A DNA stretch of 25,017 nt from a virus. The notes under the pieces are model-generated. The model saw nothing but the letters and a program-made list of their open reading frames with translations. It did no database searches and was not told the DNA's origin. Below, one piece after another: positions 772 to 24,245 of this stretch; within the stretch, counting starts at the first letter, position 1, and each line of letters begins with the position of its first letter. Location of the stretch: the IMG/VR virus record IMGVR_UViG_3300042541_001269, positions 1 to 25,017 of that record; one strand, 5' to 3'. Made by a program: the position numbers and the translations under genes.

Positions 772-3654
772 TTAAGCGCCCTTGAGGGCAGTGATTTCGT
801 CCTGTAGTCCTTCAACCATTCCTGCAAGCTCTTGCACTGCATTGACAAGAACAGGCAGTAATGTACTATAACCGGCTTCAAGCCGATCGGGATTCTCTTG
901 GCTCACAAGGTTTGGAATGACAATGCCAGTTTCTTCTTGCACGGCAAGAAGCTCCTGCGCAATGAAGCCTGCGTCTTCGATGTCCACTTTGCCTCCATCG
1001 CGAGCGTCCCAAGTGAAGGATACTGGACGAAGTTTGGAGACGAAATCAAGGCCAGCACGAAGATTGGTGATTTCTTTTTTGTCTCGGACATCAGACAATG
1101 AAGTGATGGTCGTCACTTGACAGCGTAGCGTAGCAATGCCGCTATTACCAAGAGTGATTACGTTGCTTGCCGTGACAGACGCGCCTTGTGAATTGTTTCC
1201 AATAAATGAGTTGTTTGCGCCTGTCGTATTAGTGCTGCCAGCACTGGTTCCAATGGCAGTATTACTAGTGCCACTTGTCGTAGCATAAAGAGAATAAATA
1301 CCATGAGCAACGTTGTAGTTGCCAATGGTATTAGAAAAGAGAGCCTGGGTGCCGATGGCACTGTTTTCAATGCCAGTGGTATTGGAGCCAAGGGCCTGGA
1401 GTCCAGTCGCTACGTTGGAGCCGCCAGTGGTGTTGGCAGCAAGGGCTTGGTGACCAGTCGCTACGTTGTTGCTGGCAGTGGTGTTGGCAGCAAGGGCTTG
1501 GTGACCAGTCGCTACGTTGTTGCTGGCAGTGGTGTTGGCGGTAAGGGCTTGGTAGCCAGTTGCTACGTTGTTGAAGCCGGCAGTATTGGCTGCTAGAGCT
1601 AAAGCGCCAACCGCTATGTTTTGACCGCCAGTGGTATTGGCGAGAAGAGCTTGGTAACCAGTTGCTACGTTGGTGGTGCCAGTGGTATTGGCGGCAAGAG
1701 CCTGATAGCCAGTCGCTGTGTTAGCGCCACCAGTGGAATTAGCCGCTAAAGCAGAAAGTCCAATTGCTATATTTTGTCCTCCAGTGGTGTTGGCAGTAAG
1801 GGCTTGGTAGCCAGTCGCTACATTGTTGGCGCCAGTGGTATTGGCGGTCAAGGCTTGGTAGCCAGTTGCTACGTTGGCGGCGCCAGTGGTGTTGGCGGCA
1901 AGGGTTTGGTGGCCAGTTGCTACGTTGGCGCCGCCAGTGGTGTTGGCGGCAAGGGCTAAAGTGCCAGTTGCTATGTTTTGATTGCCAGTGGTGTTGGCGG
2001 CAAGGGTTTGGTGGCCAGTTGCTACGTTGCCGAAGCCAGTGGTGTTGGCGGCAAGAGCTGAAGCGCCAGTTGCTACGTTGTTAGCGCCAGTGGTGTTGGC
2101 GGCAAGAGCGCTGCGACCAACGGCAGTGTTGTTACTGGCAGTGGTATTAACGGCGAGGGCTCCAGCACCATAGGCAGTATTATCATTACCAGTGGTATTG
2201 GTGGCAAGGGCAGTGAGACCGTAAGCAGCATTCTGACTGCCTGTAGTGTTGGCGCTGAGGGCACTAAGGCCAACGGCAGTGTTGTTGCCGCCAGTGGTGT
2301 TAGCGGTGAGGGCGGCAGAACCGATGGCGGTGTTATTGCCGGCAGTAGTATTGGAAACAAGGGCGTTAGCGCCATTGGCAGTGTTGTTGGCGCCAGTGGT
2401 GTTGGCGGCGAGGGCGCTGCGGCCAACGGCAGTGTTGGCAGTGCCAGTGGTATTGGCGGCGAGGGCTCCGTTACCAACGGCAATATTGCTAACGATTGCT
2501 CCCGCACCACGCCCCACCGTAGCGCCATAAACAGTCAAGTCCCCCGTAGAAATTGTCACGGCTCCAGCAGCGCTAACCGTCATACGTGCGACGCCGCTAG
2601 TAGACACGCCCACGGAATTAGCCGAAGGCAAATAAATGCCATTAGCAGGAACAGTAGCGCTGCTAGGAATCAGCGCAGCAGCAGTGCTATTGCCAGTAGT
2701 AATAACATTTTGACTGCCAAAATCTGGGCTAATTTTAGTGCCAACAATAGCAGCGGCGCTATTAACATCTGCATTGACAATACTGTCATTAACAATGTTG
2801 ACCGATGCCACGGTAACGGCACTAGGAAGTGCTCCGTTTGCAAGCTTAGACAGATCAATGGCGGCAGAAGCGTTAATATCAGCATTGACGATGACGCCAG
2901 TTGCAATGGACGTGGCATTCCCGACTGAAGTGATGTCGCCAGTTAAGTTGGCATTGGTGGTAACAGTGGATGCATTGCCGGCTAATGCAGCCGTGATTGT
3001 TCCAGCAGAAAAATTGCCACTTCCATCACGAGCAACAATCGCCGAAGCTGTATTAGCACTAGCAGCAGTAGTGGCACTATTGCTTACTTTTCCTGCTGTC
3101 GCAATAGTCGCAAGTTTTGCGTCAGTAATGGTTCCGTCAGCAACCATCGTGTTAGTGATGCTGCCAGTATCACCAGTGGTAACAACCGTACCAGTAACGT
3201 CAGGTAGCGTAATAATCTTATCCGACGCCACTGAAGCCGTGGCTCGCAAAGCAATATAGTTAGTGCCATTAGCCGTGGTTTCACGAAATTGCACTTGCTG
3301 CTGATTGTCCATCACCAGCGCACCCGTCATCACGTCGCCAGTGACATTGACAAACTCACCGTCTTGAGTGCGCCATGCCGTACCGTCCCAAACCTTGAAG
3401 ACATAACGGCTACTAGCAGTATCAAGCCATTGCTCGCCTTTGCTATTGCCTGCCTGTCCGCCGCTTGCAGGACTTACGTTTGGTGCCGTAGCTCCAACGT
3501 GAACAGGGCCAACTTTTACTAAGTCGCCATTACTGTCTTTAACAAATAGCCCAGGACTAGCAAGATTAGAATTAACGGCAAGTTGCCCGTCAGCCATTCC
3601 ACTAGGAACAGGACGCTTATTGGCAGTAGATGAACGCAGATGCTGGAGAGCCAT
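772..3654 (-). CDS. long tail fiber with 17-residue repeats and C-terminal S74 autocleaving chaperone
   Basis: A 960-residue adhesion fiber. Residues 1-95 carry the attachment module also found in the 229-residue protein (HLRS, KRP, ADGQLAVN, VKVGPVHVG), ending in a W-G motif (GEQWLD...VWDGTAWR). A linker rich in TGTVVTTGDTGSI and NADINASAAIDLSKLANGAL-type segments follows. Residues 390-814 are about 25 copies of a 17-residue repeat of the pattern NxAxGxxALxANTTGxx, likely a trimeric beta shaft. From Ser854 the protein matches the S74 intramolecular chaperone: SDVRDKKEI supplies the Ser and the Lys five residues on, then LRPVSFTWD and DAGFIAQELL. In this family the chaperone helps the fiber trimerise and then cuts itself off just before the Ser, which would leave a mature fiber of about 853 residues. 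ATG at 3654. Confidence 0.9.
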   Translation of the reverse strand: MALQHLRSSTANKRPVPSGMADGQLAVNSNLASPGLFVKDSNGDLVKVGPVHVGATAPNVSPASGGQAGNSKGEQWLDTASSRYVFKVWDGTAWRTQDGEFVNVTGDVMTGALVMDNQQQVQFRETTANGTNYIALRATASVASDKIITLPDVTGTVVTTGDTGSITNTMVADGTITDAKLATIATAGKVSNSATTAASANTASAIVARDGSGNFSAGTITAALAGNASTVTTNANLTGDITSVGNATSIATGVIVNADINASAAIDLSKLANGALPSAVTVASVNIVNDSIVNADVNSAAAIVGTKISPDFGSQNVITTGNSTAAALIPSSATVPANGIYLPSANSVGVSTSGVARMTVSAAGAVTISTGDLTVYGATVGRGAGAIVSNIAVGNGALAANTTGTANTAVGRSALAANTTGANNTANGANALVSNTTAGNNTAIGSAALTANTTGGNNTAVGLSALSANTTGSQNAAYGLTALATNTTGNDNTAYGAGALAVNTTASNNTAVGRSALAANTTGANNVATGASALAANTTGFGNVATGHQTLAANTTGNQNIATGTLALAANTTGGANVATGHQTLAANTTGAANVATGYQALTANTTGANNVATGYQALTANTTGGQNIAIGLSALAANSTGGANTATGYQALAANTTGTTNVATGYQALLANTTGGQNIAVGALALAANTAGFNNVATGYQALTANTTASNNVATGHQALAANTTASNNVATGHQALAANTTGGSNVATGLQALGSNTTGIENSAIGTQALFSNTIGNYNVAHGIYSLYATTSGTSNTAIGTSAGSTNTTGANNSFIGNNSQGASVTASNVITLGNSGIATLRCQVTTITSLSDVRDKKEITNLRAGLDFVSKLRPVSFTWDARDGGKVDIEDAGFIAQELLAVQEETGIVIPNLVSQENPDRLEAGYSTLLPVLVNAVQELAGMVEGLQDEITALKGA
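1213..2487 (-). repeat. 51-bp in-frame tandem repeat array in the fiber gene
   Basis: Twenty-five units of 51 bp encode the 17-residue fiber repeat; a degenerate 26th unit (NSFIGNNSQG) follows. Units vary mainly at codons 2, 4, 6-7 and 16-17, and the NTTG core is nearly constant. Units 1430..1480 and 1481..1531 are identical at all 51 bases, pointing to very recent duplication or gene conversion. The array is inside the coding region and never breaks frame. Confidence 0.95.
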
Positions 3655-3695: not shown

Positions 3696-3908
3696 CTAAT
3701 AGCTGCCGTCGTTTATGGTTAACGTGCTAATGTTCCAAGTATTAACCCATGACGCATCATAATCAACGCTACTATTCTTAATCAACACTTGATTTACAGT
3801 GCCTCCAGAACTAGGAAAGCTAGATCCCATGGCTCCTTGCGTGCCAGGCACTGCAAGAACAATTTGCGTTTCTTCATTATTTGAAACGTTAATCTGGACT
3901 TCTGGCAT
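3696..3908 (-). CDS. small fiber-associated protein (70 aa)
   Basis: A 70-residue protein, MPEVQINVSNNEETQIVLAV, then a short collagen-like stretch (PGTQGAMG), then GGTVNQVLIKNSSVDYDASW and a C-terminus INDGSY. The GGT-x-x-QVLxK...DYxxxW pattern is a common tail-fiber element. The ATG at 3908 has AGGA nine bases upstream and follows the 209-residue gene by three bases, so the two are probably translationally coupled. It resembles the 57-residue gene at 5360..5533. It is likely a virion tip or fiber accessory rather than an enzyme. Confidence 0.7.
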   Translation of the reverse strand: MPEVQINVSNNEETQIVLAVPGTQGAMGSSFPSSGGTVNQVLIKNSSVDYDASWVNTWNISTLTINDGSY

Positions 3909-3911
3909 TGG

Positions 3912-4541
3912 TCAGTTCCTGGAGTAAGTACGTTGTACGGTCGCTATGCCAGAAAGCCAATAGTAGCGTTCCCCTGGGCCGTTTGTTAAGCTTACATCAT
4001 AATTGTAACGGCCAGCTTCAATCCCAGACGAAACGGCTGGAGGCATAGTCACTAAAAACTCTCCATTCACTGCATCAGTAATTGAACAGTTAAAAGTGGC
4101 AACTTGCACATCTTGGATGATGCCCCTAACATCAGCATCAACTGTATAGCCTGTTAAGTTGACTGGCTTTGCAGCATAAAATACGCCTTCCCCATTGCTT
4201 TGAATTTGAACGGCGGTACCGCCAGAAGTGGTGGCAACATAAAATGCATTATTCGTCAAACCACTACTAAGAACAAAATAAATTGAATTCAAGCTTAGCC
4301 CACAAGGCACTTTTACTCCCGATATGGTTACAACGCCTGTAGCACCACTGGCCGTAAGGTCTTCTGCTGTAAAGACAACTTTGGTTCCATTCGTCAGTCC
4401 ATGGCATGGCGCCGTAAACAAAGCATAACCACCACTTACCGTAACACCACTCAATACTTGCCGTTGCTCAGTTGCCCGCAGTACTGCCTTCCATGTGGCA
4501 TTTTGCAAAATAGTTGTATCGTATATGGCGGGATAAATCAT
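3912..4541 (-). CDS. BppU-like baseplate/tail accessory protein with an inserted domain (209 aa)
   Basis: The ends of this 209-residue protein together look like the beta-sandwich domain at the N-terminus of BppU-type baseplate proteins. Residues 8-25 (DTTILQNATWKAVLRAT) and 126-209 (VNLTGYTVDADVRG, ITDAVNGEF, then IEAGRYNYDVSLT) would form one domain. Between them, about residues 32-122 (bases 4176..4448), sits a second module with HGLTNGTKVVF and LSLNSIYFVLSSGL...NAFYVATTSGG, a pattern I know as a separate phage tail module. The function would be linking receptor-binding parts to the tail tip. ATG at 4541; the 3' end is coupled to the 70-residue gene. Assignment is from pattern only. Confidence 0.6.
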   Translation of the reverse strand: MIYPAIYDTTILQNATWKAVLRATEQRQVLSGVTVSGGYALFTAPCHGLTNGTKVVFTAEDLTASGATGVVTISGVKVPCGLSLNSIYFVLSSGLTNNAFYVATTSGGTAVQIQSNGEGVFYAAKPVNLTGYTVDADVRGIIQDVQVATFNCSITDAVNGEFLVTMPPAVSSGIEAGRYNYDVSLTNGPGERYYWLSGIATVQRTYSRN

Positions 4542-4618
4542 CGCCTAATCACAACGCTTTCTTTTATTGTAGCTCAAGGTATCACACAAGGAGGCTTTCA
4601 TAATACGCTTACAATGGC

Positions 4619-5308
4619 TCAAAAGCTTCCGTCATCAAGGTCAGAAAGAAGAGCTATGGTGCCGGTTAAGTTTGGCAATGTAATCGTACGGTCAATAGTT
4701 GGATCCACTACTGCCAGTGTGGTTTCAAAGCCATTGTCAGTGGCGCCTTCGAAGACCAAGGAACCATTATTTCCAATTTCTAGCACTCCTGAAATTGTTC
4801 CGCCAGTTCTTGGCAGAGCATTACTAGCTAAGTCATAAGCCGTTTTGACGGCAGTAGCAGAAGCAATGGTGGTGGAGCTAGTTGTGGAAGTAGAGTCGCT
4901 AACTTTGCTTTGTAAGCCAGAAGGTGTAACAGCACGAATACTATCAGTGCCAGACTGTGTTTCAGCGCCAGTGGCTAGTGCTAGAAGGCCAGCGTTTGCA
5001 GTGGTTCCTGAAGGAGTGAGATTGACAAATGAGCTGCCCGTGTAATAATGAATGCCATGAATGGTGGTACTATTATTCACCCATAGTTCACCCAAGCTAT
5101 TTCCAGAACTTCCAGCCGGAGTCACATTGGGAGCTGCTGCGCCAACATGAACGGGCCCAACCTTGACGACTGCCCCATCGCTGGCCTTCAGGAACACCCC
5201 TGGCGTAGACGAGGCAGTGTTAAGCGCTAGTTGACCATCAGCCAAGCTGGCTTCACTGGGGCGCTTGCTGGTGATGGCAGAGCGAAGATGTCTAAGAGTG
5301 GCAGCCAT
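4619..5308 (-). CDS. short tail fiber, paralogue of the 960-residue fiber N-terminus (229 aa)
   Basis: Residues 1-90 match the attachment module of the long fiber almost motif by motif: LRHLRSAITSKRP, LADGQLALN, VKVGPVHVGA, then a weak W-G motif (GELWVNN...YYTGSSF). A middle part (ALATGAETQSGTDSIRAVTP) is typical of fiber repeats. The last about 60 residues again match the long fiber (TITLPNLTGT against IITLPDVTGT), but here the protein simply stops at LSDLDDGSF. It therefore looks like a shortened copy without shaft repeats or S74 domain. ATG at 5308; no good Shine-Dalgarno. It probably sits on the same attachment site as the long fiber. Confidence 0.75.
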   Translation of the reverse strand: MAATLRHLRSAITSKRPSEASLADGQLALNTASSTPGVFLKASDGAVVKVGPVHVGAAAPNVTPAGSSGNSLGELWVNNSTTIHGIHYYTGSSFVNLTPSGTTANAGLLALATGAETQSGTDSIRAVTPSGLQSKVSDSTSTTSSTTIASATAVKTAYDLASNALPRTGGTISGVLEIGNNGSLVFEGATDNGFETTLAVVDPTIDRTITLPNLTGTIALLSDLDDGSF

Positions 5309-14327: not shown

Positions 14328-17300
14328 TTAACGAATGCCAGCACGGCGACGGGATGAAGGAGAATTGGCAAGACGATCAATGGCAAGATTGGCTCCTCTG
14401 GCGGCGCCATCTCTACTGGCCACTCGACGAGTTTCAGCCATGGCCATTTCGAGCTGTGCTCTATCAACGTATTCTACGCCATTGATTGTTGTACTTTGGA
14501 AGCTCATGGAAAGAACCGAAGGGGAAGAACGAGATTGCGCTTGAGCAGCAAGCAGATCACGAGACGATTCGCCTCCTGGCCCCCCTCTCATTTGTACTGG
14601 AATGGAACGACCATCAGGCAATGGTACGATTGCTTCATTGTACTTGCCTTCGCCTACGAGGCCCAGCGTAGGGCCTTTAACCATGCCACCATTAGCAAAG
14701 GCTTGGAATCCGCCAGCCCAAAGAGCGCCATTAGCTGCTGCCTTAGGCTTAAATAGATTACTAAAGCCACCAACGGCCCCTCCGACGCTGGCTAGGACAG
14801 AGCCGATGCCCATAAGAGTATTACCAGTGCCACCTTTCTTGACTTGACTAATGCCTGCCGCAATGCCCATGATGGAGCCAACTGCAATGCCAACACCTTG
14901 AGTGAGCTTGCCTAAGCTTTCGCTGAATGTTGAGCCTTTTGCCTTGAGTGCCTCAGTGGACTTTTCCACTTGCCCCGGAAGGTCAACTGTTAGTGCCTGC
15001 TCAAATGGCGGTACACCTTCGAGTAGTTTGTCTTTTCCATATTCGAAGGAAGATGCAAGGCTTTCCATGGACAGACCAATAGAAGCTTGGGCGCTTTCGA
15101 AGGTGGATGCAAGAGCGGACGATATTACCTCGCCTTCTGCGCCGCCAAACGCCATGGCGCTCGAAGACAGTGATGCTAGCGTTGTCTGCCCTCCCAAGGT
15201 GGGAGCTGTTGTCGCAGCCACTCCAATCGGCGACGGCTGCCCCACAAGAGCTGCTGTAACACTTTCGAGAGCCGTTGTATTTTGGACTATGGCGCTGGTG
15301 TTGCCATTAGTGGCCTGTACGGGATCCTTGGAAATATCACTGGGAAGCTCTCCTGCCTTTTGCTGTATTCCTTTAGGCAACAGCAATCCTTCCAGTCCTT
15401 CTTTAAGGAATTTATCTACAGGGGCCATGGCAAAGTCAAAGAAAATGGTCAGCACTTTATCTTTTAAGCCTTCTTGAAACTTTTTCAAAGCGTCGGCCGC
15501 ATCTTCGCCGGAAATGACGGCCTTCAAGAAACCCTTGTAATCTCCAGTGGTACTAGAGACAAAGCCATCAATTAATGAGCGCGTTTCTGCAATGTTCTTT
15601 TTGATTGTTTCTAGGTCAAAAATCTCTTGAGCCTTTGCGTTTCCGTACTGCGATTGAATTTCAGCGAGCCTGCGTTCTTCGTCGCCAACAATAAGAAGAA
15701 GCTTAACTTCATCTTGCAGGCTTTTAATGTACTTAGCAGTATCTCTTGTTTTTACTACTTCAATGCCTCGCAGTGTTTCGTCGTTCTTGTTTTTTTCAGC
15801 ATCCTTGGACGCTCCAAGCGCCTTGGCTAGCTCGGCCTCTAGCATCATGCGCTCTTCCGCAGAAAGCTTTGCTTTTTTAGCAAAAGAAGGCAAAGCCTTT
15901 AGCAAATCTTGGTATTGAAGATCAAGCTCCAGTAACCGCATTTTGTAATTAATTATATTTTCGTCTACGCCCTGCTCCATCAAATTATTGCGCTCTTTTA
16001 GCAATTGACTGTCAAGAGTTAAATCAGGAACGTTATACACTTCTTGCATATAACGACCTAGTTCTTTCATGATGCTGCTTTCCTTGATTAGAATTGCTCC
16101 GCGATCCGCAAGCGCAGCATTCTCTTTTGCTATGCCAGTATTGGCCACCGTCATAGTGTCACGATTTTCATTGCTTCCTACTTTTCTGGGAGCGCCTGCA
16201 CCAACTGGGCCAGAATAATTCATCAAGCTTGCCAGCCCCGTCGTCATTTTCACCTTTCCTTCTGGAGTGGGTATATGCAAATGAATATTTTGGCCGCCTT
16301 TTCCAGCTCCGTGTCCATACGGGTCCCGTTCGGGCCCGAACAGTTGACTGCCAAAAGCACCAGTAGCTTTTAGCTTTCTCTCCATGTCAATTGTCCTGCG
16401 CAACGCATTCGCATCACTTCCTCCCAGAATGCCCATATCCATGGCATTAAGAGTGTGATTAGGTGTTGCGTGACCTTTGTTTGTAAAATCTCCAGTGGTG
16501 CGCCCAAATCCTTGAGACACCAGCCATTCGCGTAATACTTTTTTATCAATGTACCCAGAAGACGCTACGGAACCTCCGACTGAAGACGGCGATACGGCAG
16601 CAGAAGGTGATACTTTGCCTGCTGCTTCTGCAATACTTAACTGACCACTAAATGCAACATCTTGTCTCTCTTGCTCAGTCTTTGCCAGCGCCCGTAAGAA
16701 TTGCAAATTTTGCCTTTGGAGGCGGTTAGCCCCAAATTCTTGCATGTCATACAAATCTTCACGAAGTCGCTTTTCTAGTTCATAGCGAGCTTTAATGCGT
16801 TCAATTTCTGCCTGATTATAGGCATTTGCAAGCTGGTCACGAAGACGTTCAAAGTTTTCCAAGCTATCTTCTTTCTTTTTTTTGTCCTCTTTGCCTGCAC
16901 GGTCCATGGACATGCCCGCGCCTTTTCCGCCAAAATCCAGCGTCAAGCCACTTGGCTTACTCGTCTGATAGGCAGCGTTACCTCCTAAATCAGTGAATAA
17001 TTGATTCAGCTCATCCCGGCGCTTTTGCAAGCTTTTAAGAGTTGCCACTGCTACTGTATTGTCGCCTGGCCGATTCTTTGTTGATGCAATAGCTTCAAAC
17101 GCTTCATTGATCTGTGTGTTTACAGTTTGCCTTTCTGTAGCAACAGATTGAATGTCACCGCTGCCCGTCATATTGCGAACAACAGTCGCTACATTGGCAA
17201 TGTTTTTGAAAACTTCGTAAATGCCTTTGAATACAAAGCCAAGTTTATTTGCAGCTTCCACTGCAAGAGTGACCAAAGATGCCAAGCCACTGGCAATGGT

Positions 17301-18944
17301 CTTCAGTTCTTGTTCATTTGCAAGGACAAATTTTCTAATATCATTAAGAGTGCCTGTAAGTAAATCTTGCAAATCTGCGCCAGATTCCGTAAATAATGAC
17401 CCAATGGACAGAGAAACTTGCTCCAAAGCAATCGCTAGGCGTTGCCCCGCGTATTCAGGAGCTGTTGCTAACTGCTCACTAAATTTCCCATAGTCTGCAT
17501 AGTTTTTCTTGGCAAAATTGATAAATTCTTTAATGCCAATCGTGCCTTTCTCTAAGCCATCTTGCAATTGCTCAAAGCTTAGTTTATTAGCTTGAGCAAA
17601 TTTAACCACGGCGCCAGGGAACCTTTCTCCCAACTGGCCGCGAAGTTCTTCTGCCTGTACGCCGCCTTTGCTCATAATTTGAACAACGGCTCGCATGGCT
17701 CCATCTAGATCTTCAGCGCTGCCGCCAGTGGCCATGATGGCTAAAACTGTGCCTTCTAAGATTTCCCTAGTTTCATCAACTGATAAATTATATTCTTTTG
17801 TGTTAGCTCTTAGTTGAGTGAAGAATTTGGAAGTTTGTTCTAAAGGAATTAAGAGCTTTTGGCTCATTTCGCCAACCGCTGCCTGCGCCTGCGCAAAGTC
17901 TTTGGCATCGACAGACGCCATAGCAAGACCTCTTTGTATCCTTTGCACAGCAGAGGCTTGACTGGTGATGCCCGCCAAGGCAGTGCCCAAATTGTCTGCC
18001 ACTTGACCAATGGCGGCCCCTGCAAAGGCTCCAGGCACTCCACCGGCAAGACCACCAGCAACTCCCCCTACTGCGCTTCCAATGCCTCCTCCAAGCCCTC
18101 CTCCGTAGAGGAATGCTCCGCCAGCGGCCCCCACTCTTTGACCAGCAGAGGGCCCGACGCTTTGCCTCTTCTGAATCTTTTGAATACCTTTTTCTGCTTT
18201 TAGTATTTCTTTGTTTAATTCTCTCCAGCGACTGCTATCAGGAGAAATCAGACGAGCTTCTTTTTGCAGGACTTTTAATCTATTCTCATAATCAGCAAGA
18301 GAGTTTGGTCGAAAAGCGTCTGGGGATGGCTTAATTGTCTTTGCAGTTTTAGCCGCTTGGCCTATCGCCTCTAAGTACTCAGGGCTTCCTGGGCTGCTAG
18401 GAATACCCTTGCCGCCTTTGGTTGGTCCGTATTCAATGCCTCCACGAACTGGACTAGCAATTAATGGAATGGCCCCCTTGGCGCCCATGCCAGTGCGAAA
18501 TTCTGCAACAGCCTTAGAGCGCCGCTCTTCCGCTCTTGTTTCGACGATGGCCATTTGCAGCCTTTCGTCAAACGCTTTTCTCTCGGCTGCCATCCTTTGC
18601 TTTAGCAGCCGATCCTCTTCCTTATACGACTCTTCTGCTATTTTGAGAAGATCTTTATGGTACTTTGCTGCTCCTTGACTAGCGCTGCCATAGGCTCGCT
18701 GCATTGATGCCAAAGCCTTATCTAGATCAGAATAAGCTTTGTCAATATTTGCAACGGCTCCACGAGCGTCCTTAAGCTCTTGATTTAGCTTACTTAAATC
18801 ACTGGCTCTTGCAATAAATTCTTCTGCGCCGATTTGGGCATTTTCAAATTCTTTTGTGACCCCTTGAATGCTTTTCTTGAGAATCTTAATAGTCCTACCG
18901 GCACTACTGGCATCGGCGGTAAATGCAACTGCATATTCAGCCAT
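14328..18944 (-). CDS. tail tape measure protein with embedded peptidase-like segment
   Basis: A 1538-residue protein, by far the largest. It opens with coiled-coil sequence (residues 1-150), then a Gly/Ala-rich hydrophobic stretch (about 271-325), then a typical tape-measure N-terminal domain (about 333-490: IQRGLAMASVDAKDF, GGVQAEELRGQLGERFPGAV). Around residues 795-895 there is an unusual insert with NHTLNAMDMGI (about H830, D836) and NIHLHI (about H887/H889), resembling the zinc ligands of LAS/M15 or M23 peptidases. A second hydrophobic stretch (about 1338-1395) and the C-terminal motif GLVGEGKYNEAIVPLPDGRS are standard tape-measure features. By the usual rule of about 1.5 angstrom per residue, the tail would be roughly 200 nm. 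ATG at 18944 has GAGG six bases upstream and overlaps the gp10-like gene. Confidence 0.93.
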   Translation of the reverse strand: MAEYAVAFTADASSAGRTIKILKKSIQGVTKEFENAQIGAEEFIARASDLSKLNQELKDARGAVANIDKAYSDLDKALASMQRAYGSASQGAAKYHKDLLKIAEESYKEEDRLLKQRMAAERKAFDERLQMAIVETRAEERRSKAVAEFRTGMGAKGAIPLIASPVRGGIEYGPTKGGKGIPSSPGSPEYLEAIGQAAKTAKTIKPSPDAFRPNSLADYENRLKVLQKEARLISPDSSRWRELNKEILKAEKGIQKIQKRQSVGPSAGQRVGAAGGAFLYGGGLGGGIGSAVGGVAGGLAGGVPGAFAGAAIGQVADNLGTALAGITSQASAVQRIQRGLAMASVDAKDFAQAQAAVGEMSQKLLIPLEQTSKFFTQLRANTKEYNLSVDETREILEGTVLAIMATGGSAEDLDGAMRAVVQIMSKGGVQAEELRGQLGERFPGAVVKFAQANKLSFEQLQDGLEKGTIGIKEFINFAKKNYADYGKFSEQLATAPEYAGQRLAIALEQVSLSIGSLFTESGADLQDLLTGTLNDIRKFVLANEQELKTIASGLASLVTLAVEAANKLGFVFKGIYEVFKNIANVATVVRNMTGSGDIQSVATERQTVNTQINEAFEAIASTKNRPGDNTVAVATLKSLQKRRDELNQLFTDLGGNAAYQTSKPSGLTLDFGGKGAGMSMDRAGKEDKKKKEDSLENFERLRDQLANAYNQAEIERIKARYELEKRLREDLYDMQEFGANRLQRQNLQFLRALAKTEQERQDVAFSGQLSIAEAAGKVSPSAAVSPSSVGGSVASSGYIDKKVLREWLVSQGFGRTTGDFTNKGHATPNHTLNAMDMGILGGSDANALRRTIDMERKLKATGAFGSQLFGPERDPYGHGAGKGGQNIHLHIPTPEGKVKMTTGLASLMNYSGPVGAGAPRKVGSNENRDTMTVANTGIAKENAALADRGAILIKESSIMKELGRYMQEVYNVPDLTLDSQLLKERNNLMEQGVDENIINYKMRLLELDLQYQDLLKALPSFAKKAKLSAEERMMLEAELAKALGASKDAEKNKNDETLRGIEVVKTRDTAKYIKSLQDEVKLLLIVGDEERRLAEIQSQYGNAKAQEIFDLETIKKNIAETRSLIDGFVSSTTGDYKGFLKAVISGEDAADALKKFQEGLKDKVLTIFFDFAMAPVDKFLKEGLEGLLLPKGIQQKAGELPSDISKDPVQATNGNTSAIVQNTTALESVTAALVGQPSPIGVAATTAPTLGGQTTLASLSSSAMAFGGAEGEVISSALASTFESAQASIGLSMESLASSFEYGKDKLLEGVPPFEQALTVDLPGQVEKSTEALKAKGSTFSESLGKLTQGVGIAVGSIMGIAAGISQVKKGGTGNTLMGIGSVLASVGGAVGGFSNLFKPKAAANGALWAGGFQAFANGGMVKGPTLGLVGEGKYNEAIVPLPDGRSIPVQMRGGPGGESSRDLLAAQAQSRSSPSVLSMSFQSTTINGVEYVDRAQLEMAMAETRRVASRDGAARGANLAIDRLANSPSSRRRAGIR

Positions 18945-19353
18945 TTTTCACCTCTTGCAAAAATAAATTGTCAATCACTTTATCCAGTCTAGAGATGGTG
19001 TCCCTAGTAAATGGTCGCGCAGGTATGCGATTCCCTGGCTTATGAACATAGCCATTATGCACTTCTAGCGCATAAGCCTCTCCTTCTCCGCCTGTCCAAG
19101 TAAAAACTGTCCGCAGTTCACCTATGTTTTCTCTTGCCTGACTATCTCTCAACCCTCCCATGTCAACAATATCCCTTGGCGAATCCACTTTTTCGCCATT
19201 GACTCTTTCTGTTGGGTTAGGCCAATCCCATTTTACTGCATCAATTTCGCTTAAAAAATCCTCTTCGGCCCAATCCATTGCACGCCTAAAAATAGTCCTT
19301 GAAATCCCCTCAAGCTGCACAAGCTTGCTTGTCACATTGTCAGTGATTCGCAC
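18937..19353 (-). CDS. HK97-gp10-like / tail completion protein (138 aa)
   Basis: A 138-residue protein. VDMGGLRDSQ...TVFTWTGGEG.AYALEVHNGYVH...RIPARPFTRDTI fits the HK97-gp10 / Mu-gpG-like family pattern: a Gly-Leu-Arg-Asp-Ser segment, YAxxVHxG, then an ARPF motif before a C-terminal helix. These proteins help complete the head-tail joint or tail. The start is a GTG at 19353; an in-frame TAA lies nine bases upstream, so no longer start exists, and the next Met is 26 residues in. The Shine-Dalgarno is weak. Its location between the chaperone and tape measure genes is later than usual for this family. Confidence 0.7.
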   Translation of the reverse strand: MRITDNVTSKLVQLEGISRTIFRRAMDWAEEDFLSEIDAVKWDWPNPTERVNGEKVDSPRDIVDMGGLRDSQARENIGELRTVFTWTGGEGEAYALEVHNGYVHKPGNRIPARPFTRDTISRLDKVIDNLFLQEVKNG

Positions 19354-19379: not shown

Positions 19380-20314
19380 CTAGCTAAGTTCAGCGCCAAT
19401 TAGACCAATGACAATGGGTGGCATCTTTTCGTTTTTCAACGCCCACCTAATTGCGTGTTCTGTTTCTGACTGTAAATCATTAGAACCTTTCTTCATTTCA
19501 TAAGGCAAGAAGTCAGCCAAGCTTGTTTTCTTGCCTTTACTAGACAACGCAGAAAGTACCACTCCTCCCAGTTTGGCAGTTGCAATGCTTTGGGCATTCA
19601 CTTGTTCTCTTTGCTTTTCCAGAAGGTTTTCTAGGCAAACCTGCATAAAGGCAATCGGCACTTTCCCAAAATGCCTTGCGTGAAAAATGGGATCATTGGC
19701 TGCTAGCGCTAGGAGGTGGCAATAAATACCAGTCCAGTCCGTAGAGTAATTTATAGCCTGGTCACAACTTTGCTCTAGTCGCTCCAGGAATGTTATTTTG
19801 GGGCTTCCTGCTCCTCTTCTTCGTCGCCTTGCAATGCTCCATTTTCTTCGGCCATGAAGCTTTCTATTTTTTGCAATAGAGCTTGTGGTAATTTATTAGT
19901 GTCATCCTTCTCCCAGTCATCTGTGGCTTTCCACTTTTTGCCATCAAACACTTCGCCGCGATTACGGAAGAACAAAGTGACCAAGCTTTCGAATTGCTCC
20001 CTTCCAGACGGTACCAAGTTCATGAGGCGAGAAGTGTCTTCCGAAAATTCGCTTAATAGCTCAGACCTTTCCGGGGTGTCTTCTTGCAAAAGCCCAAAAG
20101 CATCTTCTTCTGGAATGCCTTTTACTTTGGCAATATGACGAGCCAATTGAATTGTCTTCAAAGTAAATTGAGCACGCCTTTTGTTCTGCTCCTCACGCAT
20201 CCAAGTTTCTTCTGCCAGCCAGCTTTGATATTTGCGCAGGCGCAGTTTCTCTCCAATCTCAGCGTACTCAGGGGAGCTGAGAAGGAAAAAATCAGAGTAT
20301 TTGCTCATTGCCAT
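19380..20314 (-). CDS. tail assembly chaperone fusion made by -1 frameshift (GT-type, 311 aa)
   Basis: The 173-residue frame (20314 to the stop at 19793) ends ...QEAPK. At C CCA AAA (19802..19796) a -1 slip gives the next codons ATA ACA TTC CTG GAG. That frame is open without interruption through ITFLERLEQSCDQAINYSTD, then a His/Leu/Ala-rich stretch, into PIAFMQVCLENLLEKQ, and ends at TAG 19380. The fusion is 311 residues. The downstream frame has no credible start of its own: the first start codon is a GTG deep in the domain. In lambda, G and GT made this way act on the tape measure protein during tail assembly; the place just before the tape measure fits. Confidence 0.85.
19757..19802 (-). 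promoter_or_regulatory. programmed -1 ribosomal frameshift signal
   Basis: The heptamer CCCAAAA (19802..19796) is in the correct register, C CCA AAA, immediately before the zero-frame TAA. Seven bases further on, CCTGG (19788..19784) can pair with CCAGG (19761..19757), a possible stimulatory stem with a 22-base loop. The slippery site is of the XXXYYYZ type used in phage tail chaperone genes. The stem is short and its role is less certain than the heptamer. Confidence 0.8.
19793..20314 (-). CDS. tail assembly chaperone, unshifted product (G-type, 173 aa)
   Basis: The zero-frame product is 173 residues, helical and charged (EEDAFGLLQEDTPERSELLS, RLMNLVPSGREQFESLVTLF), with a strongly acidic C-terminus (GDEEEEQEAPK). 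It matches the lambda G type in size class, position and relation to the shifted product. Two starts are possible, ATG at 20314 and ATG at 20308; neither has a clear Shine-Dalgarno, so translation probably relies on coupling with the upstream 84-residue gene, which it overlaps by 23 bases. Usually much more of this form than of the fusion is made. Confidence 0.8.
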   Translation of the reverse strand: MAMSKYSDFFLLSSPEYAEIGEKLRLRKYQSWLAEETWMREEQNKRRAQFTLKTIQLARHIAKVKGIPEEDAFGLLQEDTPERSELLSEFSEDTSRLMNLVPSGREQFESLVTLFFRNRGEVFDGKKWKATDDWEKDDTNKLPQALLQKIESFMAEENGALQGDEEEEQEAPK

Positions 20315-20546
20315 TTAATGGAAGTAGCGACAGTCTAGCGTTGAGCATTCGCAAAGGCACAGAAGAATTTGCTGCTCTAGACGGTATCATTGCTATACGT
20401 TCTTCCCCATTGATCTGCATCTTTATTTCTAAAGGGCAACTAGAAATGAAACAAGCAAAGCCAGCAGTCAAGGAATCGCCGTCTTGCGTGACATTAAACA
20501 GCCAAGCTTTTTCGCAGTGACTTTTAATAAACTTTTTGGTCTTCAT
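20292..20546 (-). CDS. hypothetical protein in tail module (84 aa)
   Basis: An 84-residue protein, MKTKKFIKSHCEKAWLFNVT, then TAGFACFISSCPLEIKMQIN, ending LPLNGNEQIL. It looks beta-rich and has three cysteines. Its ATG overlaps the tail terminator stop (ATGA), and its 3' end overlaps the chaperone start by 23 bases, so it is in the same translationally coupled run. I do not recognise a family. Position suggests a small tail assembly or tube-capping factor, but this is only context. Confidence 0.6.
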   Translation of the reverse strand: MKTKKFIKSHCEKAWLFNVTQDGDSLTAGFACFISSCPLEIKMQINGEERIAMIPSRAANSSVPLRMLNARLSLLPLNGNEQIL

Positions 20547-20995: not shown

Positions 20996-21574
20996 TCAGC
21001 TATTAGGAGAAGAAGGAATCAGCGAACCAGTGTTAGTGGCATTCTGATGCACGCCAATCCGGCCACGGCTGATCAAGTCAAAGGTCACTTCAACGAGATT
21101 GTCAGCAGGATAGCTTTCGCTATAGTTCATCACGCAAGCCGTATAAGCCACGCGATCATAGTAGAACGTAGTACCGCTAACGCCAAGTTGCTTGTTGATT
21201 TCAACGTACACTTCTTGGTTCTTGTTATAGCGGTTAGCTGCAATCACCTGGAAGGCTTCATCAAAGCTGTTGGGGATGAAGGTGGTGCCGTCAACGTCCT
21301 TCTGGAAGTAGGAAGTGATGGAAGCAGTGGCTTGGCTGGTGACGATCACGCTGTCAGAGAAGCCGCCGCCGCCTAGCAGGTAGAACTCCGTGTTGCCATC
21401 GTTGAAGGCTACGGAAGCCGTCGTGGCGGCTTGGAGGGTGTAGAGGGTGGGGGCGCCGCTCACCGTGAAGGTGGCGCCACTCTGAGTGATCACTGGACGG
21501 CCAACACCGTCAATGGAACCAACACGTACAATTACGTCTTGGCTCTTAACCAATTCTGTGGGATGGTAGAGCAT
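20996..21574 (-). CDS. candidate major tail (tube) protein (192 aa)
   Basis: A 192-residue beta-rich protein. Key parts are FNDGNTEFYLLGGGGFSDSV, a loop rich in T and D, VYVEINKQLGVSGTTFYYDR, and ESYPADNLVEVTFDLISRGR, the last like the closing strands of tube proteins. It has a good Shine-Dalgarno (GAGG, seven bases from the ATG at 21574) and is followed at once by an intrinsic terminator. By eye its codons are richer in G/C than its small neighbours, as in the capsid gene, consistent with very high expression. These three points plus position favour the tube protein; sequence similarity alone is modest. Confidence 0.65.
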   Translation of the reverse strand: MLYHPTELVKSQDVIVRVGSIDGVGRPVITQSGATFTVSGAPTLYTLQAATTASVAFNDGNTEFYLLGGGGFSDSVIVTSQATASITSYFQKDVDGTTFIPNSFDEAFQVIAANRYNKNQEVYVEINKQLGVSGTTFYYDRVAYTACVMNYSESYPADNLVEVTFDLISRGRIGVHQNATNTGSLIPSSPNS

Positions 21575-22755: not shown

Positions 22756-23670
22756 TCAAGAAGACGCCTGCACGTAAACCATGCTCTTGGGATAGTACAC
22801 AGCCACACCACCCACGCGAGCGTGAGCAGGGACGATGAACTCAAGACCACGTTGCTGGGGCGGGAACAGTTCGAGGGGCTGAGGGATGTGCAGTTGCACT
22901 TTCTCAGGATCGCGCTTGTACACGACCATGCGGCTGGTGTTCAGGCGGCCGCTGTTCTTGCCCTTGGTCAGTTGGTTGATGGGTTCAACGTTACGGATGT
23001 AGGGGTTGGTGCGCAGGAAGTATTCCAGCACAGTCACGTCCGAAGAATCAGAGTTGCGGGTGGTGCTAACTTTGTTGTAATCTTCGTAAGCCAGCAGGAT
23101 GGTATCCGGCTGTTCTTTCATGTTCGAGCCGTTGATGATGGCAGTAACGCCATAGTTCAGCAGTTCAATCATTTCTTGAGCAGTGGTGCCAACAGTGGTG
23201 AACCACTTGTCAGCAGCAAGGATGTCAACGGTGGAGTTGTTGAAGAAACCAGCCATGTTGACGGTGGACTCACCGAACATTGCAACGCTTTCAACTTTCT
23301 CCTCATAAGCGCGACGCACTGCAGCAGCACGACGTTGCTCAAGGGCAATGTTGGCCATTTGAGCAGCACGCAGTTCCTGAACGGTATAGCCGAAGCTGCC
23401 ACCGAAAGAACGGATGTTGATGCTCTTCTCCACCTGGCTGATGTCGGCACGCGGCAGATCATCGGCAGCATCGGCAATCAAGCGGAACTCCCCAGTGGAG
23501 TCCATGATGCGATAGGTGAAGGTTTGGGCGCCAGGACCAGCTTCGCTAGTAACAGGAAGAATGGTCGAGTACTTGATATCGGCATAAGCGATTTCAAATA
23601 CTTGAGGGCGGATGTACTCAAGCTGACGCTGCAGGAAAAGCCCAGCGTCATCCATACGGAAATCAGACAT
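22756..23670 (-). CDS. major capsid protein, DUF2184 type (304 aa)
   Basis: A 304-residue HK97-fold candidate of the DUF2184 group. Visible parts are LEYIRPQVFEIAYADIKYST, AGAQTFTYRIMDS-like strands, the P-domain helix LRAAQMANIALEQRRAAAVR, ALFGES-type turn VAMFGESTVNMAGFFNN, PDTILLAYEDYNKVSTT, and the closing PQQRGLEFIVPAHARVGGVA. It forms the icosahedral shell. I chose the ATG at 23670: AGGAGG lies seven bases upstream (23683..23678). The alternative TTG at 23688 lies upstream of this site and would add six residues. There is no N-terminal delta domain, so scaffolding must come from another protein. Its codon choice is visibly G/C-rich, as expected for the most abundant virion protein. Confidence 0.88.
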   Translation of the reverse strand: MSDFRMDDAGLFLQRQLEYIRPQVFEIAYADIKYSTILPVTSEAGPGAQTFTYRIMDSTGEFRLIADAADDLPRADISQVEKSINIRSFGGSFGYTVQELRAAQMANIALEQRRAAAVRRAYEEKVESVAMFGESTVNMAGFFNNSTVDILAADKWFTTVGTTAQEMIELLNYGVTAIINGSNMKEQPDTILLAYEDYNKVSTTRNSDSSDVTVLEYFLRTNPYIRNVEPINQLTKGKNSGRLNTSRMVVYKRDPEKVQLHIPQPLELFPPQQRGLEFIVPAHARVGGVAVYYPKSMVYVQASS

Positions 23671-23677
23671 TAGAGGG

Positions 23678-23683
23678 CCTCCT
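23678..23683 (-). promoter_or_regulatory. strong ribosome binding site deciding the capsid start
   Basis: AGGAGG on the minus strand, seven bases from the ATG at 23670 and two bases after the upstream gene's TGA (23687..23685). It fixes the capsid start at 23670 rather than the TTG at 23688. Confidence 0.85.
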
Positions 23684-23684
23684 A

Positions 23685-24245
23685 TCAAGAATCAGCAGAG
23701 AGAGTGAAGCTAGGGCCGTTCAGCTCCAGAACCACCAAACCGCTACCAGTGGTAGAAGTAAGGAAACGAGCATTGGAAAGGCGAACGGTTTTGCCAGATG
23801 CAAAAGCATGGCTGAACTGACCGGCCTTACCAGTGCCGCTTGCGGAGTAAAGAACCCGCACAGGCGAAGCTGGAGTGACGGTGCCGGTGACATAAACTGC
23901 CACAGCGCCTTCGTTGGCAACGTTCATCACTTGGTCGATTTTCACACCAGGACGAGAGTCACTGTTAATAGCGGTTTCGTCAACGTAGGTGAGAATGTTC
24001 ACGCCAAGCACAGTGCCAGTGGCGCCAGAAATCGTGGTAGCAGAGTTTGCGACAGTGCCAGCCACGTTGTAAACTTGCAGGTCGCCGAAGGGCTGCACAA
24101 CGGCAGTTTCATTGATGCAGGTGCTAATCGTATTGTCGCGGATGTCAGCGAGTTGACCTTCCAGCAAAGCAGCATGAGTGAGAGCGTAGCTCTGTTGCAC
24201 GCCACCAGCAGAAGCAGTCCCTGACGTAGTGAAAGTTACAGCCAT
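23685..24245 (-). CDS. capsid decoration/cement-type protein (186 aa)
   Basis: A 186-residue beta-rich protein between the scaffold/protease and capsid genes, where decoration or structural cement proteins are encoded in many siphoviruses. It starts MAVTFTTSGTASAGGVQQSY, has a helical ALLEGQLADIRDNTISTCIN segment, then barrel-like strands (VDETAINSDSRPGVKIDQVM, AVAVYVTGTVTPASPVRVLY). It ends GSGLVVLELNGPSFTLSADS. It has no enzyme motif and G/C-rich codons, suggesting an abundant virion protein. It starts at ATG 24245, three bases after the DUF2213 stop. Confidence 0.65.
   Translation of the reverse strand: MAVTFTTSGTASAGGVQQSYALTHAALLEGQLADIRDNTISTCINETAVVQPFGDLQVYNVAGTVANSATTISGATGTVLGVNILTYVDETAINSDSRPGVKIDQVMNVANEGAVAVYVTGTVTPASPVRVLYSASGTGKAGQFSHAFASGKTVRLSNARFLTSTTGSGLVVLELNGPSFTLSADS

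Follow-up and report, generated by a model that had tools for sequence, protein, structure and literature searches.

The window analysed here is a 25,017-base stretch of DNA from an uncultured virus, and two overlapping reading frames, referred to as G and T, lie on its minus strand between a major tail protein (MTP) gene and a tape measure protein (TMP) gene. The features that the following paragraphs draw on are given in the order in which the minus strand is read.

22756-23688, minus strand: major capsid protein gene, 85% identical to that of Synechococcus siphovirus S-CBS4
20996..21574, minus strand: MTP gene, with a weak match to phrog_1407 (E=5e-5)
19793..20314, minus strand: G-like zero-frame ORF, 173 codons from the ATG at 20314
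19811..19816, minus strand: Shine-Dalgarno (SD)-like GAGGAG, 8 nt upstream of the heptamer
19796..19802, minus strand: slippery heptamer CCCAAAA in the register C_CCA_AAA (X_XXY_YYZ)
19793..19795, minus strand: zero-frame stop codon TAA, adjoining the heptamer directly
19757..19788, minus strand: 3' hairpin, starting 7 nt after the heptamer
19380..19796, minus strand: T-like -1 frame coding region, 138 codons and a TAG stop
18937..19353, minus strand: gene X, with weak matches to phrog_5 (tail completion/neck1, E=0.005) and phrog_37577 (E=4e-5)
14328..18944, minus strand: TMP gene, matching PF20155 TMP_3 (E=8e-24) and several tape-measure PHROGs

G ends in an acidic linker (...GDEEEEQEAPK) whose last codons are GCC CCA AAA, followed by TAA; a Met that is conserved among G homologues, as the start of MSKYS, lies at 20308 in the window. 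A sequence-only reading of this DNA, which named no strand, had placed CCCAAAA in the zero-frame register immediately before the stop, and this is where it was found (19802-19796, then TAA at 19795-19793); after a -1 slip the ribosome would decode the heptamer as CCC AAA A. The -1 frame stays open between 19892 and 19380 and, as that reading had it, continues for 138 codons beyond the slip site. We also agree with it that the second frame lacks its own start codon close to the junction, the earliest ATG, GTG or TTG being the GTG at 19661, which is 46 codons in and sits within conserved T sequence. Its warning that independent gene calling would mislead is borne out by a mechanical ORF list, in which T appears only as a 93-aa ORF starting with GTG. 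The corrected gene model would put one fused product in place of this spurious gene.

Relatives keep the same order of genes, MTP - G - T - gene X - TMP. Among loci with enough flanking sequence, an MTP homologue was found upstream of G in 42/42 and a TMP gene downstream in 49/49, and gene X lies between T and TMP in 66 of 67 homologous loci. Genes of the tail completion/neck1 type usually sit upstream of the major tail protein, and a position between T and TMP is unusual for this type. Searches of G and T against Pfam, PHROGs, NCBIfam and PDB sequences gave only weak, inconsistent matches. AlphaFold2 models built from 12-row alignments were of mediocre confidence (mean pLDDT of 69 for G and 61 for T), and Foldseek with the G model returned no match at E<=0.001 in either PDB or BFVD, the best BFVD match being unnamed (E=0.007). 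A chaperone function was assigned from the place of the pair, between the genes for the major tail protein and the tape measure; the known families of tail-assembly chaperones often share no sequence relationship, and architecture is therefore the ground on which membership is claimed. Position and architecture, not homology, support G and T as a lambda G/GT-type tail-assembly chaperone pair; what supports the earlier naming of the two frames as tail chaperones is gene order, and not sequence or fold homology.

To follow the junction in relatives, viral contigs were searched with both halves and with their alignments, which gave 73 distinct homologous junctions (72 from IMG/VR and one from S-CBS4, a Synechococcus phage in culture). 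At every one of them it is the -1 frame that carries the second half. Conservation of the heptamer had been proposed beforehand as a test of the frameshift, and an in-register XXXYYYZ heptamer was present at the frame junction in 73/73 homologues, compared with 36 of 12,371 other codon positions in the homologous upstream genes (0.29%). Four classes of heptamer were seen (AAAAAAC in 38, CCCAAAG in 23, CCCAAAA in 11 and AAAAAAA in 1), and the zero-frame stop, whether TAA, TAG or TGA, adjoins the heptamer in 58 of the 73 and follows 1-13 codons later in the rest. In a tree of the joined proteins the IMG/VR AAAAAAC sequences form one clade (support 99/98). A swap between C_CCA_AAR and A_AAA_AAC keeps the register and a shift-prone heptamer and changes the encoded residues from PK to KN; on this tree the heptamer class has switched one or two times without any loss of register. 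Homologues with the same residue in the heptamer also share its codon in 95-100% of pairs, as opposed to about 48% in the rest of the gene. G is 47-83% identical across 11 aligned homologues and T is 38-72% identical across aligned homologues; dN in the T frame is 0.05-0.18 and dS is at least 1 and often saturated, values that point to strong purifying selection on this frame.

Two further elements flank the heptamer, an upstream SD-like motif and the full extent of the downstream hairpin, and both are additions to the sequence-only reading. Across the family, a purine motif resembling an SD is found 5-10 nt before the heptamer. In 34 representatives (homologues less than 80% identical in T, which are still related by descent), Glu codons at positions -3/-4 were GAG in 32 cases and GAA in 12, and at -1/-2 they were GAG in 4 and GAA in 30, a split by position with a Fisher p of 6e-8. 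Predicted pairing with the anti-SD averaged -7.4 kcal/mol in the same representatives, compared with -5.1 kcal/mol in synonymous shuffles (p=2e-5). The window's own pairing energy is -7.6 kcal/mol, but 26% of nulls were as good, so that it is not significant alone; the signal is significant in aggregate and mostly not in single sequences, and it falls in an acid-rich linker, which favours GAR codons anyway. The element is weak or absent in homologues L021, L084, L086 and L114. An SD spacing of 9-14 nt has been reported for stimulators of -1 frameshifting, and the best spacing found here, about 5-10 nt, falls at the low end of that range or short of it (PMC5009743).

Downstream, the 5-bp stem that had been noted 7 nt after the heptamer proved to be the outer part of a longer hairpin, in which an outer helix of CCTGG/CCAGG (19788-19784 / 19761-19757) encloses an inner helix of 6 bp (19782-19777 / 19769-19764). 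The window hairpin has a minimum free energy of -14.1 kcal/mol (z = -3.3 relative to dinucleotide shuffles). The 40 nt beginning 5 nt past the heptamer fold at -11.0 kcal/mol, compared with -6.4 kcal/mol in synonymous shuffles (p=1.5e-6), and the fold was more stable than synonymous shuffles in 28 of the 34 representatives. This excess was strongest at the junction, absent from the next two segments and marginal at +125. In the main AAAAAAC clade the hairpin is usually CGGCTTGC-NNN-GCAAGCCG with variable loops, and pairing in the hairpins is far above that in slid controls. A covariation test of the hairpins gave pair covariation that was not above shuffles, and it is stability, not compensatory change, that argues for the structure. 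L003 and L025 have a disrupted outer helix, and that of L027 is weaker.

Sequence comparison makes it very probable that G and T belong to a lambda G/GT-type tail-assembly chaperone operon and are joined by programmed -1 ribosomal frameshifting. Most ribosomes would end at the zero-frame stop and produce the short form, G. When CCA occupies the P site and AAA the A site, a fraction of them would shift back by one nucleotide to CCC AAA, bypass the TAA next to the heptamer and read 138 codons more, which would give a G-T fusion of 311 residues. While the ribosome elongates, its 16S rRNA tail may pair with the SD-like GAGGAG, which probably raises the frequency of the shift, as probably does the RNA hairpin 7 nt downstream. 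SD and stem-loop stimulators are known for -1 shifts, and C_CCA_AAG has been reported to be highly shift-prone in E. coli (PMC5009743). In lambda the G/GT products link the tape measure and the tail tube protein (PMC5009743); by analogy, the expected binding partner of G is the tape measure protein, and the T domain would bring in the major tail protein. For a member of this class, G would also be expected to exceed G-T in amount and the chaperones to be missing from virions. That slippage occurs, how efficient it is and what the proteins do is what we infer from the observed anatomy and its conservation.

T could instead be a separate gene with its own, possibly non-canonical, start that is expressed by translational coupling, in which case the SD-like motif would hold the ribosome for reinitiation. 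The motif does lie just before the G stop, as in many coupled genes (PMC5009743), and in the window a codon ATA overlaps the zero-frame stop in the -1 frame. However, the heptamer stands where a start served by the SD would have to lie, and the first ATG, GTG or TTG available in the window is 46 codons in, inside conserved T sequence. A conserved start for T, which had been named as an observation that would speak against frameshifting, was not found: 26 of the 34 representatives lack a T-frame ATG or GTG within 40 nt of the zero-frame stop, and in the other 8 such a codon varies in position. An own start would also leave the 73/73 in-register heptamers unexplained, and we consider coupling very improbable as the source of T. 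A single homologue, L018, has a T-frame ATG that overlaps the zero-frame stop as ATGA (3861-3880; CCCAAAATGA) and keeps the heptamer. This overlap could make T by reinitiation, and a double mechanism, frameshift together with stop-start reinitiation, is possible in L018.

A change of frame could also arise before translation, if RNA polymerase rather than the ribosome slipped on homopolymer runs. The AAAAAAC and AAAAAAA classes (38+1 of 73) hold runs of 6-7 A on which RNA polymerases can slip, but the window and 33 other junctions are CCCAAAR, with runs of just 3-4 identical bases. Polymerase slippage does not need the codon register that is kept in 73/73, and the SD-like and hairpin signals act on ribosomes, which makes this explanation even less probable than coupling. 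A sequencing or assembly error or a degraded gene, which might be suspected of a single metagenome contig, is refuted by the homologues, in which the same -1 offset recurs at 73 distinct junctions from independent samples and from cultured S-CBS4 and in which T is under purifying selection. Programmed ribosomal frameshifting is the reading retained in what follows.

S-CBS4 is the sole cultured relative that we found (locus L021, taken from HQ698895.1 15779-24255, with the junction locus at 4001-4971). Its gp032 is a G homologue (38% identity) and its gp033 a T homologue (31% identity to a relative), and an in-register A_AAA_AAA lies at 20276-20282 of the record. S-CBS4 differs from the window in that the stop is 13 codons past the heptamer, in having neither a clear SD at the right spacing nor a hairpin, and in having no gene X homologue between T and TMP. 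The two proteins were deposited as separate hypothetical proteins with no frameshift noted, and the annotated start of gp033, at 20528, is about 245 nt past A_AAA_AAA. gp033 is probably the C-terminal part of a -1 fusion, made through A_AAA_AAA, that the record leaves unannotated. The annotation of gp032 is probably 69 nt short at its 5' end, the conserved MSKYS start being at 19779 of the record.

A cyanobacterial host was inferred because the capsid protein is 85% identical to that of S-CBS4, and the window probably comes from a picocyanobacterial siphovirus. In the same comparison G is about 38% and the tape measure 32% identical, so that the tail module either diverged much more than the capsid or was exchanged. 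No psbA/psbD gene (PF00124) was found in 12 larger related contigs, no prophage copy was confirmed in the genome contigs searched, and the 25,017-base window holds no tRNA gene. Elsewhere in the window, a gene at 772-3654 on the minus strand encodes a 960-aa tail fibre/spike-like protein, whose C-terminus looks like a self-cleaving chaperone domain. Within this gene, an array of 51-bp tandem repeats at about 1371-2482 encodes NTTGxxNxATGxxAL repeats.

The phage family concerned is common in the IMG/VR collection, and its chaperone pair is recognised by no profile library, including in the deposited S-CBS4 genome. We found no report of this frameshift in S-CBS4-like phages in the open-access literature. 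The class to which the pair would belong is widely conserved (PMC5009743); PRFect (PMC10885494) cites 28 phages with such a frameshift from Xu et al. and puts the annotated cases in SEA-PHAGES at about 2,400. As with lambda G/G-T, the frames of the window pair overlap and lie after the major tail protein gene and before that of the tape measure, and the frameshift fusion would add a C-terminal domain (PMC5009743). The pair differs from lambda in showing no similarity to a known chaperone that sequence or fold searches could detect, in a stop that adjoins the heptamer directly, in the family's extra gene X between T and TMP, and in a putative dnaX-like pair of stimulators unlike what is reported for lambda. 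This would be a known kind of frameshift in a new protein family, for which a higher frameshift rate is plausible.

The signals themselves resemble those of E. coli dnaX and the IS-element cassettes, which likewise have an SD-like element upstream, a heptamer and a stem-loop a few nt downstream (PMC5009743). The SD here is a few nt closer than in these cassettes, and the heptamers are CCCAAAR or AAAAAAC, not AAAAAAG. dnaX is also a different gene with a different purpose; here it is the longer product that would come from frameshifting, with the short one terminating at the zero-frame stop. A_AAA_AAC has been reported to be much less shift-prone than A_AAA_AAG in E. coli (PMC5009743), and its presence in L012, L014-L017 and most AAAAAAC relatives may reflect properties of the host tRNA-Asn. 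We tentatively suggest, as a possibility that is less likely than not, that an unnamed and widespread chaperone family of S-CBS4-like cyanosiphoviruses combines a dnaX-like SD, heptamer and hairpin with an adjacent stop, in contrast to an apparently unstimulated lambda, that its G-T:G ratio is higher, and that its A_AAA_AAC clade implies a more slip-prone host tRNA-Asn. If both stimulators work, the family would offer a test of whether cyanobacterial ribosomes slip on A_AAA_AAC, and a natural comparison with lambda for the setting of the G:G-T ratio.
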